From NCBI GenBank assembly GCA_029003235.1, contig JAQYBZ010000109.1, forward strand, positions 1-36,265: DNA of 36,265 bases, read 5' to 3'. Source of the DNA: Bacillota bacterium (GTDB taxonomy: Bacteria > Bacillota > Clostridia > Oscillospirales > Oscillospiraceae). The translations under genes and the position numbers were made by a program. This document shows, one piece after another, positions 1 to 30,254 of this stretch; the stretch's first letter is position 1; each line of letters starts with the position of its first letter. The notes under the pieces were generated by a model. It saw nothing but the letters and a program-made list of their open reading frames with translations, ran no database searches and had not been told where the DNA came from.

Positions 1-407
1 TTTTCCGCCTCGCCCCCGGGGCGTTTTTTCTGCGCGCCCGCGCCTGCGCGGGCTTGCTTTGGGTCGCGTTTTTCGCGGGGCTTTCCCGTGCGCGGGTTCG
101 GCGGCGTGGCCGCCGCCGTGCGGCATGCGCCGCCCGGTTGACAGACCGAAAAAAGTAAACCGTACTCTACACGTTGCGTGTGGGCGCGTTCTTTTTCGTT
201 GGCTTCTCCCCTGCGCCCCTCCCGTCCCCGCCGCCCCCGCTGGGGGCTCCGGGGAAGCGCGAGGCTGTGCCGCTGGGCTTCCGGTTCCCTGCTTCGTCCC
301 GCCGCCGCTCTCCCATTGTCCGCAGCGCGTAAAGACTGCCCTCCGGCGCGCCCTGCGTGGGATGGGCGCGGTCTTGACCCGCTGCGGGCTTTTTTTGCCC
401 GGCGGGC

Positions 408-437
408 TTGACTTTTCCGGCTCGCACGTGGTATACT
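408..437 (+). promoter_or_regulatory. Putative sigma-A promoter TTGACT-N18-TATACT, with -10 flanked by the perfect 8-bp inverted repeat CTCGCACG/CGTGCGAG (421-428/441-448)
   Basis: Direct reading: TTGACT 408-413, TATACT 432-437; palindrome arms flank the -10. Confidence 0.6.
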
Positions 438-443
438 GTTCGT

Positions 444-533
444 GCGAGGCTGTGCCGCTCCCGTTTGGGAGCCGCCCGAAAGGGTGTCCGGGGTTCAGAC
501 GAAAACCCGTCCGGTTTTTCCGGGCGGGTTTTT
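444..533 (+). ncRNA. Candidate short structured RNA ending in an intrinsic terminator
   Basis: Promoter just upstream; hairpins CUCCC-GUUU-GGGAG and CCC-GAAA-GGG; terminator AAAACCCGTCCGG-TTTTT-CCGGGCGGGTTTT (502-532); no convincing ORF. Confidence 0.4.
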
Positions 534-628
534 TGCTGCTTCGGTACATAGAGCCAAACCAAAATTGATACCCTTTGCCGCTGCGCCCGCCGCTCTTTTT
601 CTACTTGATACGAAATCGCCCGCCCGCC

Positions 629-663
629 TAACGCAACAAAACATCTGTTATTTTGTTGCGTTA
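629..663. repeat. Perfect 13-bp inverted repeat with 9-bp spacer (TAACGCAACAAAA-catctgtta-TTTTGTTGCGTTA)
   Basis: Direct reading. Confidence 0.9.
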
Positions 664-18031: not shown

Positions 18032-18137
18032 TTTGCAACAGCGGATGCGAAAATGGCATCGCGGAGCAACGCTCCTTCGCCCGGCGGCAACCTCCCATCC
18101 AACCGGTACTTAACGCGCCATTTCTACTCATGCAACA
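18032..18137 (-). promoter_or_regulatory. Tetrahydrofolate (THF-I type) riboswitch aptamer
   Basis: Minus strand: GAGTAGA...GCGTTAAGT...GGATGGGAGGTTGCC...GCGAAGGAGCGTTGCTCCGCGATGCCATTTTCGCATCCGC, closed by TTGCA/TGCAA; matches the known folT THF riboswitch layout. Confidence 0.92.
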
Positions 18138-27306: not shown

Positions 27307-27335
27307 TTGACAACGGGCGGCATCTGTGGTACTAT
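27307..27335 (+). promoter_or_regulatory. Sigma-A promoter TTGACA-N17-TACTAT of the metNIQ leader
   Basis: Consensus -35, 17-bp spacer. Confidence 0.85.
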
Positions 27336-27365
27336 GCAAGAAATTCAGGAAACGGAGGGGCAGTC

Positions 27366-27467
27366 ATGAAGGCTTTTGCACGCGGCGGCTGGATGATGAT
27401 GTGCATGTGCTGCTACATGTGCATGCCTTGCTATGCCTCCAAGCCGTCTCTTGAACCCTGTGAATAA
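27366..27467 (+). CDS. 33-aa Met/Cys-rich leader peptide upstream of metNIQ
   Basis: MKAFARGGWMMMCMCCYMCMPCYASKPSLEPCE; GGAGGGG RBS; followed by terminator before metN. Confidence 0.8.
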   Translation: MKAFARGGWMMMCMCCYMCMPCYASKPSLEPCE

Positions 27468-27484
27468 TTCTCTTTTGAATTACG

Positions 27485-27520
27485 AAGGCAGGAGACGAAA
27501 GTCTTCTGCCTTTTCTTTTT
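27485..27520 (+). terminator. Intrinsic terminator (attenuator) between leader ORF and metN
   Basis: AAGGCAGGAGAC-GAAA-GTCTTCTGCCTT-TTCTTTTT. Confidence 0.9.
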
Positions 27521-27532
27521 ACGGAGGATGAA

Positions 27533-28522
27533 ATGATTGAACTGGTTCATTTAGGAAAGGTCTTTCAGACGGCGGCGGAACCCATCGTCGCGCTGGAAGA
27601 TGTCAGTCTCACCATTGAAGACGGTGAGATCTTCGGCATCATCGGCCTGTCCGGCGCCGGAAAAAGCACGCTGGTACGATGTATCAACCTGCTGGAGCGC
27701 CCCACGTCCGGCGACGTGCTGCTGGACGGCAAATCCCTGCTGGCGCTGCCTCAGAAAGAGCTGCTGACCGTGCGCCGGCAGATCGGCATGATTTTCCAGA
27801 GCTTCAACCTCTTTGAACAGCGCACGGTGCTGAAAAACGTGTGCTACCCGCTGGAGATCGCCGGGGTGTCCAAGGCGGAGGCCGTGAAAAAGGCCAGAAA
27901 GCTGCTGGAGCTTGTCAGCCTTGCCGACCGGGAAAAGGCATATCCCTCTCAGCTCTCCGGCGGCCAGAAGCAGCGCGTGGCCATTGCCCGTGCCCTGGCC
28001 ACCGACCCCAAGTATCTGCTGTGCGACGAAGCGACCAGCGCCCTTGACCCCAACACCACCCAGTCGATTTTAAGTCTGCTGAAAAAGATCAACCGAGAGC
28101 TGGGCGTCACCATCGTGGTCATTACCCACGAAATGCGTGTGGTAGACCAGATCTGTGACCGGGTGGCCGTCATTGACAAGAGCCGCATTGCCGAAATTGG
28201 CCGGGTCTCAGATATCTTCTCCAATCCTCAGTCGGAGATTGCCCGGGAGCTGATCCTCCCACAGTCCCCGCTGACCAAAAAGAAGATCGGAAAGGAACGG
28301 GTGCGCATCATCTTCGACGGCACGGAAGCGCAGCCCGCCATCGCCGACATGGTTCTGGCCTGTCAGACCCCCGTAAGCATCATCTTCGCCGATACCAAGG
28401 AGCTCGACGGCAAATCCTACGGCCATATGATCATCCAGCTTCCCGAGGATGCCATGCAGGCTGAACGCATTACCGCATGGCTCAACGCCAGCGGCCTGAA
28501 ATTCACAAAGGAGGCGCAGTGA
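27533..28522 (+). CDS. metN: Methionine ABC transporter ATP-binding protein with NIL domain
   Basis: GLSGAGKSTLVRCINLLERPTSG, LSGGQKQRVAIARAL, C-terminal NIL-like region; RBS GGAGG. Confidence 0.95.
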   Translation: MIELVHLGKVFQTAAEPIVALEDVSLTIEDGEIFGIIGLSGAGKSTLVRCINLLERPTSGDVLLDGKSLLALPQKELLTVRRQIGMIFQSFNLFEQRTVLKNVCYPLEIAGVSKAEAVKKARKLLELVSLADREKAYPSQLSGGQKQRVAIARALATDPKYLLCDEATSALDPNTTQSILSLLKKINRELGVTIVVITHEMRVVDQICDRVAVIDKSRIAEIGRVSDIFSNPQSEIARELILPQSPLTKKKIGKERVRIIFDGTEAQPAIADMVLACQTPVSIIFADTKELDGKSYGHMIIQLPEDAMQAERITAWLNASGLKFTKEAQ

Positions 28523-28523
28523 G

Positions 28524-29204
28524 ATGATTTCTGAAATGCTGGCAAAGCTGTGGCAAAACGGTATTTTGCAGCTTGGCATCTGGGAAACCGTTTATATGAC
28601 TCTGATCTCCACGGCTTTCGCCTATCTCATTGGTCTGCCCCTGGGACTGCTGCTTGTGGTGACGGACAAAAACGGCATCCATCCCATAAGCTGGCTCAAC
28701 CGGGTGCTGGGCATCGTGGTCAACGCCTTCCGCAGCGTACCGTTTATCATCCTCATGATCGCCATGCTGCCCGTGGCCAAATTTGTGGTAGGCACCAGCC
28801 TTGGCAACAAGGCCATGGTCGTCACGCTGGTCATTGCCGCTGCCCCCTATGTGGCGCGTATGGTGGAGTCCTCCGTCAAGGAAGTGGACAACGGCGTGAT
28901 TGAGGCGGCAAGAGCCATGGGCACATCTTCCTTCAAGATCGTCTGGAAGGTGCTGATTCCCGAGGCAAAGCCCTCCCTCATCACCGGCGCCATCATCTCC
29001 ATGGTAACGATTCTGGGCTATTCCGCCATGGCCGGTACCATCGGCGGCGGCGGCCTGGGACAGATCGCCATTACATACGGCTATCAGAAATACAATGACG
29101 ATATTGTCTGGATCTGCGTGGTGCTTACCGTTATTATCGTTCAGATCATTCAGGAGGCGGGTATGCTGCTGGTACGCAAAACCGACAAGCGCATCCGCCA
29201 GTAA
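28524..29204 (+). CDS. metI: Methionine ABC transporter permease
   Basis: VNAFRSVPFIILMIAMLPVAKFVVGTSLG typical of MetI. Confidence 0.95.
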   Translation: MISEMLAKLWQNGILQLGIWETVYMTLISTAFAYLIGLPLGLLLVVTDKNGIHPISWLNRVLGIVVNAFRSVPFIILMIAMLPVAKFVVGTSLGNKAMVVTLVIAAAPYVARMVESSVKEVDNGVIEAARAMGTSSFKIVWKVLIPEAKPSLITGAIISMVTILGYSAMAGTIGGGGLGQIAITYGYQKYNDDIVWICVVLTVIIVQIIQEAGMLLVRKTDKRIRQ

Positions 29205-29336
29205 GGAGAAGCCATGAGTATACAACTTGCGCGGTTGGTTCGATGTAACTTCCGCCTTGGTCGAATGTGCGGCCAGTCAAACTTCATAGGAAAAACAACA
29301 ACAAACAATAAATATAAATGATAGGAGATCTTTCAA

Positions 29337-30206
29337 ATGAAAAAGCTGCTTACAATTCTTCTGGTTCTGACCCTGACGCTGTCTCTCGTCGCCTGCGGCG
29401 GCGCACAGACCACCACGACCACGGCGAACGACGCCGCAACCACCGAAGCCGCCGGATCGGCTGATGACAACGTTATTACCGTCGGCGCCAGCTCCACTCC
29501 CCATGCGGAAATTCTGGAACAGGTTAAGGACGCACTGGCTGCCGAGGGCTACACCCTGAACATTGTGACCTACGATGACTATGTACTGCCCAACGAAGCC
29601 CTGGCGGACGGCACACTGGACGCCAACTACTTCCAGCACACCCCCTACCTGAACAACTACAACGCCTCCAACGGCACCGATCTGGTGGCCGCAGCCTCCA
29701 TCCACTATGAGCCCTTCGGCATCTATGGCAACGGCGTGGACGACCTGTCCCAGCTTGCCGACGGCGCCACCATTATTATCCCTGCCGACGACAGCAACGA
29801 GACTCGCGCCCTGCTTCTGCTGCAGCAGGAAGGTCTGATCACCCTGCCCGAGGATGCCAGCGCCACTGTGGGCGTGAGCACACTGGACATCGTGGACAAC
29901 GGCGGATATAACATCGTTCCCGTACAGGCCGACACCGTGGCCGCACAGCTCAACAACAGCGACGCCGGCACCATCGCCGTCATCAACGGCAACTACGCCA
30001 TGGCCGCCGGTCTGAAGGTTGAAAACGCCCTGGCTATTGAAGACGCCTCCGGCGACGCCGCCCAGACTTATGCCAACATCATCGCCGTGAGAAAAGACGA
30101 CCTGAACAGTGCAAAGACCCAGGCGCTGATCAAGGCGCTGCAGACCGACGCGGTCAAGCAGTACATCGAAGAGACTTACAACGGCGCTGTGGTCGCCATT
30201 TTCTAA
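29337..30206 (+). CDS. metQ: MetQ/NlpA-family substrate-binding lipoprotein
   Basis: Lipobox LSLVACGG; VGASSTPHAEILEQVKDALAAEGYTLNIVTYDDYVLPNEALADGTLDANYFQHTPYL. Confidence 0.96.
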   Translation: MKKLLTILLVLTLTLSLVACGGAQTTTTTANDAATTEAAGSADDNVITVGASSTPHAEILEQVKDALAAEGYTLNIVTYDDYVLPNEALADGTLDANYFQHTPYLNNYNASNGTDLVAAASIHYEPFGIYGNGVDDLSQLADGATIIIPADDSNETRALLLLQQEGLITLPEDASATVGVSTLDIVDNGGYNIVPVQADTVAAQLNNSDAGTIAVINGNYAMAAGLKVENALAIEDASGDAAQTYANIIAVRKDDLNSAKTQALIKALQTDAVKQYIEETYNGAVVAIF

Positions 30207-30221
30207 AAAATTTATTCCCGG

Positions 30222-30254
30222 ATCGGCCTGCTGTAAAAAGCAGGCCGATTTTTT
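30222..30254 (+). terminator. Intrinsic terminator after metQ
   Basis: ATCGGCCTGCT-GTAAAA-AGCAGGCCGAT-TTTTTG. Confidence 0.9.

Follow-up and report, generated by a model that had tools for sequence, protein, structure and literature searches.

A probable ribosome-mediated attenuator with a methionine-rich leader upstream of metNIQ in an Oscillospiraceae genome

The 27307-27532 bp region of the window, as we call the whole 36,265-nucleotide stretch of Oscillospiraceae DNA that was analysed, very probably controls transcription by ribosome-mediated attenuation, as trp/his leaders do, with methionyl-tRNA as the signal; the stalling of the ribosome, the identity of the signal and the direction of the response are inferred. 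All parts of the device, its recurrence, its specificity for Met and the coevolution of its helices were observed; translation of the leader itself was not demonstrated. The sequence satisfies four of the criteria of such an attenuator, namely a leader ORF with promoter and SD, a conserved excess of Met codons, a terminator and a coevolving antiterminator.

Layout and recurrence of the leader

The features of the leader and of the operon behind it are as follows.

27307-27335, + strand: sigma-70-type promoter driving the leader (TTGACA-N17-TACTAT, 10 of 12 matches, TG ahead of the second hexamer)
27344-27362, + strand: region 1 (protector), 5'-UTR with the leader SD (MFE fold and coevolving pairing)
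27354-27359, + strand: leader SD, GGAGGG (sequence)
27366-27467, + strand: leader peptide ORF, 33 aa, MKAFARGGWMMMCMCCYMCMPCYASKPSLEPCE (ATG 27366-27368, TAA 27465-27467)
27393-27431, + strand: Met/Cys codon run, codons 10-22, the proposed sensor (shuffles; Met codon conservation)
27445-27457, + strand: region 2, antiterminator arm inside leader codons 27-31 (pairing tests)
27484-27513, + strand: stem of the intrinsic terminator, made of regions 3 and 4 and followed by T-rich sequence up to 27520 (sequence)
27533-28522, + strand: metN, ABC ATPase with a C-terminal NIL domain (family search)
28524-29204, + strand: metI, permease, above the NCBIfam MetI cut-off (family search)
29214-29321, + strand: second conserved uORF, 35 aa, MSIQLARLVRCNFRLGRMCGQSNFIGKTTTNNKYK, SD-led, CGA-ATG at 29262-29267 (pattern search)
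29337-30206, + strand: metQ, NlpA/MetQ-family lipoprotein (family search)
30220-30251, + strand: terminator-like hairpin at the operon end (sequence)

The promoter, the SD, the 33-aa Met/Cys ORF and the terminator were all found where an initial annotation of the bare sequence had placed them; two features had escaped it, the pairing of the SD region with the antiterminator arm and the second short ORF between metI and metQ. The leader ORF contains six internal Met and six Cys codons, 11 of these 12 lying in codons 10-22, and the tail of the terminator ends at 27520, leaving a gap of 12 nt to the metN ATG at 27533. As promoter and SD are present, the ORF should be translatable, judging from the sequence. 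No SD-led ORF equalling its Met + Cys count per 15 residues arose in 2000 dinucleotide shuffles, and a genome-wide search for ATGATGATG identified the window copy as the sole leader-like one among the 30 loci examined. Neither Pfam nor NCBIfam held a model matching the leader peptide. MetN and MetQ scored below the NCBIfam equivalog cut-offs, thus the exact substrate of the transporter is inferred rather than certain.

To survey the occurrence of such leaders, metN homologues were gathered from public genomes, about 100 upstream regions were fetched, and 187 upstream regions were scored. In 46 of the 187, a short ORF behind an SD carried three or more Met within 15 residues, compared with one on the reverse strand and a mean of 1.0 in shuffled sequences. 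When at least four residues of one kind in 15 aa were required, the forward, reverse and shuffled counts were 39, 1 and 0 for Met and 7, 1 and 0 for Cys, and no other residue behaved in this way. The leader was found together with a terminator at about 49 loci (a few of them added or corrected by hand), ahead of metN, or ahead of metQ in genomes where metQ comes first (L008, which belongs to the genus of the window, L059, L261, and L273). The lengths of the 49 leaders range from 11 to 52 aa with a median of 29 aa, the median number of internal Met is five, and the stop codon precedes the terminator by a median of 31 nt. Promoter-like sites were located no more than 120 nt upstream of 47 of the 49 leaders, as against one on the reverse complement. 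The leaders represent six or more families of the order Oscillospirales and also include one from an Erysipelotrichaceae MAG (L053); the metQ-first leader of L059 belongs to a Lachnospiraceae genome, and a Spirochaetales MAG (L093) carries a Met-rich leader without a clear terminator. In two genomes (L047 and L049), a single metN is preceded by a tandem pair of complete Met-leader/terminator units. The majority of the metN upstream regions examined had no such leader, and when runs of Met close to an SD were sought by pattern, the hits were mainly coding-sequence noise and a few metQ-first or otherwise placed leaders. The leaders recur in dozens of relatives, where, as far as can be read from sequence, the ribosome itself probably senses methionine shortage.

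Competing helices and the proposed switch

The 191-nt leader RNA folds far better than its shuffled versions (z = -5.65). The competing pairing claimed in the initial annotation, CGTCTCTTG (27445-27453) with CAGGAGACG (27489-27497) and an additional CC:GG, exists exactly as described, and as an isolated hairpin (27444-27498) this antiterminator reaches -19.5 kcal/mol, against -19.6 kcal/mol for the terminator. The MFE fold of the untranslated leader places 27344-27362, which contains the SD, in a helix with the antiterminator arm. In individual loci, the antiterminator pairing was often weak: only three of 22 loci reached p<=0.05 against shuffles (Fisher p=0.013), and L009 and L061 showed little of it. 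Since this per-locus test was too weak, a cross-pairing permutation test was used, in which the sequence separating the Met run from the terminator was paired, for each locus, with the locus's own terminator 5' arm and with that of every other locus. Own pairs were stabler than swapped ones in both of two separately collected 18-locus sets (p=0.0018 and 0.0024) and in the 36 loci taken jointly (p=5e-5), whereas the control segments upstream of the leader and downstream of the terminator gave no signal (p=0.35 and 0.27). The loci are related to differing degrees, so these p values are guides only. Preferential pairing with the antiterminator arm of the same locus was also seen for the SD-to-Met-run region (p=5e-5, 36 loci); by parts, the UTR gave p=0.01 and the first codons p=0.04, the Met run was not significant, and the upstream control gave p=0.15. 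Because the antiterminator and the protector pairings both coevolve, the window follows the three-helix scheme of the trp attenuator, in which region 1 sequesters region 2, region 2 is able to pair with region 3, and region 3 otherwise forms the terminator. The alternative helix coevolves with the terminator in both locus sets, and this, along with the recurrent Met leaders, supports the ribosome-mediated attenuation put forward in the initial annotation.

According to the proposed mechanism, transcription would begin at the 27307-27335 promoter and a ribosome would trail RNA polymerase through the 33-codon leader. With Met (possibly Cys too) plentiful, the ribosome would arrive at the stop codon, where its footprint (about 27448-27478) would mask most of the 27445-27457 arm, the 27484-27513 terminator would form, and metNIQ would be off. 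When Met-tRNA is scarce, the ribosome would stall in codons 10-22 and the downstream antiterminator arm would stay free to pair with the 5' arm of the terminator, letting polymerase proceed into metNIQ. If the leader is not translated, the SD region would pair with the antiterminator arm and termination would be the default.

The geometry of this switch was examined assuming a ribosome footprint of the usual size, which starts about 14 nt upstream of the P site and ends about 16 nt past the first P-site base. A stall in codons 10-22 leaves the RNA clear from 27445 onward, and a ribosome sitting on the stop codon hides about 10 of the arm's 13 nt; this arm-free/arm-masked geometry fits the window and many loci, but not all. 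In the equilibrium model of a transcript ending at 27500, few or no antiterminator pairs remained with a ribosome at the stop codon, whereas 5.7-9 of the 12 pairs formed when the run and the start site were both occupied. With a single ribosome stalled at Met20, the arm stayed in its pairing with the SD region except when an initiating ribosome covered the latter. In the full leader at equilibrium, the terminator won in nearly all states; taken together with the effect of the single stall, this means that the switch must be kinetic. Going by the model, the switch in the window probably depends either on a ribosome trailing at the start codon or on a stall late in the run; both conclusions are inferences. 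The ribosome masks used in the fold model sat 1 nt downstream of the true codon positions, and the conclusions should hold regardless.

The amino acid sensed and competing explanations

The initial annotation had left the signal as Met or Cys. Met occurs in 49 of the 49 leaders and makes up 20.5% of their residues, and Cys occurs in 44 and accounts for 8.8%; five leaders with a Met run (L009, L045, L053, L061, and L208) have no Cys. Among closely related leaders, Met positions were changed in three of 43 cases versus 38 of 156 for other positions (one-sided p=0.007), and the codon changes overall comprised 18 synonymous and 41 non-synonymous ones. The retention of Met positions while others change is better explained by a codon sensor than by a peptide with a function of its own, and the Met run, whose absence from orthologous leaders would have told against the initial annotation, is kept in the 49 leaders. 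Since Met is in every leader and Cys is missing from five, Met is the likelier primary signal, as far as leader composition can tell; regulation by Met supply is untested and the role of Cys is open. The same attenuator could have Cys-tRNA as its main or joint signal and thus be a sulfur-amino-acid rather than a Met sensor, an unlikely but still serious possibility to which the six Cys codons of the window leader and the Cys content of the other leaders lend some weight. The annotated metNIQ leader of Streptomyces lividans mixes Met and Cys as well (...ARCMCRRMCAF, PMC8079986). Against Cys-tRNA stand the presence and abundance of Met in all leaders, the five Cys-free Met runs, and the genes downstream, which are of the methionine-uptake type.

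Control of Firmicute methionine genes is usually ascribed to S-box riboswitches or Met T-boxes. The terminator might be governed by an RNA that binds a metabolite or a tRNA, such as an unknown SAM/Met riboswitch or a degenerate T-box, and the ORF might be incidental, but we regard this as very improbable. The frequent use of such elements in Firmicutes speaks for it, as do the S-boxes identified in 37 of 59 relatives and the T-box (L182, 340-599) lying upstream of a metN at the position held elsewhere by the Met leader. However, Rfam searches detected no SAM aptamer (RF00162 and other SAM families) or T-box (RF00230) in the window leader, where even at E=10 only chance-level matches were obtained, and none was present in 20 leader loci of relatives, in agreement with the initial annotation, which had seen no aptamer of either class. 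Moreover, the Met codons persist across families whose leader RNAs are otherwise unalike. The window's own genome has an S-box ahead of metK; its S-boxes were located in L250 (66-160, with metK at 218-1381) and in L251 (675-761, minus strand), the latter preceding a 117-aa ORF of unknown function (288-641, minus strand). Three relatives (G024, G025, and G032) have Met leaders and no S-box match. The only Rfam match in the window is a THF riboswitch (RF01831) at 18037-18134 on the minus strand, well above the gathering score. The swapping of sensors ahead of one gene is a known pattern (PMC2965389).

Marginally less credible still is a reading in which the short ORF codes for a functional metal-binding peptide rich in Met and Cys, with the terminator merely marking the 3' end of that ORF. 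MMMCMCCYMCMPC does resemble thiol/thioether metal ligands and an SD is present, but the length varies between 11 and 52 aa, the non-Met residues drift, Pfam and NCBIfam gave no match, and the ORF recurs ahead of metN/metQ with a terminator and a coevolving alternative pairing. Finally, although slippage can yield low-complexity ATG/TGC repeats, a chance origin of the Met-rich ORF and the helix in a GC-rich leader was refuted by the comparative data (46 loci versus about one) and left without support by the window shuffles (0 of 2000).

A second short ORF and the relation to known systems

The uORF between metI and metQ fits the pattern MxxxFxxL[LV]RxN[FY]RxGRM in its first 18 codons, with Leu replacing Phe at position 5. 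Among 394 genomes of the order, 77 contained the degenerate pattern RxN[FY]RxGRM, at 84 places in all, and its reversed version gave a handful of hits. At 83 loci (L313-L342 and L343-L394), the next recognised gene was metY in 62 cases, metQ in 12, metN in three, and none of these in six, the metY calls being based on resemblance to the protein encoded next after the L313 uORF, which we take to be an O-acetylhomoserine sulfhydrylase, judging from its sequence without a family search. The Arg before the final Met is encoded by CGA in 80 of 80 distinct copies, whereas the two other Arg draw on any of the six codons. This Met falls exactly at codon 18 in 68 of the 83, and 24 have the stop right after it. 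The search pattern imposed the residues of RxN[FY]RxGRM, but it fixed neither the CGA bias nor the length nor the gene association. In the longer copies of L331, L333, and L334, the 5' arm of a terminator matches, by eye, the codons just past the Met. No Pfam, NCBIfam or Rfam family covers the GRM uORF and no mention of such peptides was found in the open-access literature, so the family is apparently undescribed.

The fixed length, the peptide motif and the invariant codon pair suggest an arrest-type uORF of the methionine regulon; ligand-dependent stalling is conjectural, and no stall codon is known. TnaC-like arrest peptides have conserved residues at a fixed distance from the stall codon; the only traits here that may compare are the 18-codon length and the CGA before Met, the motif residues having been search-imposed. 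We are inclined, by a small margin of confidence, to the view that metNIQ has two ribosome-based sensors, the Met-codon attenuator and an 18-codon arrest-type uORF of an undescribed Oscillospirales-type methionine-regulon family, which perhaps senses methionine or a related metabolite by nascent-chain or codon-pair stalling. Upstream of metN in L242, L243, L244, and L249, there is a short ORF ending in ...R-M-stop (CGAATGTGA), for example MQQGGTLRERM and MSKRPVLKERM, which falls after the attenuator terminator in L242-L244; these ORFs are possibly related to the GRM family. Two apparently homologous leaders upstream of metN in one genus, L171 with the Met run FRMMRMLCSR and L174 with the motif FRCGRM in FRCGRMLCSR, suggest by their likeness that the Met-run and GRM leader types interconvert.

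To our knowledge, ribosome-mediated attenuators have rarely been described in Clostridia-type Firmicutes. Like the trp, his, leu and ilv attenuators, the metNIQ leader has a run of codons for the very amino acid with which its operon deals, helices for protection, antitermination and termination built from shared segments, and a geometry that may suit a stalled ribosome; it differs in its amino acid (Met, with Cys), its transporter operon and its Clostridia-type Firmicute host. The nearest counterpart is the metL leader upstream of metNIQ in S. lividans TK24, MSTTSDRTPATEATTTPGARCMCRRMCAF, a short ORF with Met and Cys codons ahead of the same operon (PMC8079986, Table 4), for which the authors name Met and Thr, not Cys; unlike the window leader, it belongs to an Actinobacterium, lies on a leaderless transcript and is missing a typical Rho-independent terminator (PMC8079986). 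The His leader peptides of hisS/hisZ in Bacilli likewise exemplify Firmicute leader-peptide attenuation replacing T-boxes, but they concern His, histidyl-tRNA-synthetase-type genes and another order, and the portion of PMC2965389 on which we rely mentions no methionine leader. Cys leader peptides resemble ours in having Cys-codon runs (cys operons of Actinobacteria, PMC1262725; cysS uORFC-8-2 of Rhodobacterales, PMC8632094), but precede other genes in other phyla, the actinobacterial ones without clear terminators (PMC1262725). S-boxes (SAM-I) and Met T-boxes also control Firmicute met genes via premature termination, whereas the window leader has neither aptamer nor tRNA-binding domain. In the publications that we located, the leader peptides described for Firmicutes relate to His and branched-chain amino acids. 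The open-access literature yielded no methionine leader from a Firmicute, which does not prove novelty; leader attenuation of this type appears new for methionine in Firmicutes, with the S. lividans leader as a precedent without a terminator.

It is an oddity of this arrangement that Met shortage should also curb initiation, on which the sensor itself depends. If the GRM uORF is an arrest peptide, it would add a new sensor class for methionine synthesis genes. As to the attenuator, a large gut-associated group appears to translate a Met-codon run that reports charged Met-tRNA rather than SAM; as the leader would respond to Met-tRNA and metK keeps its S-box, the two ends of the pathway would be sensed separately within a single organism.
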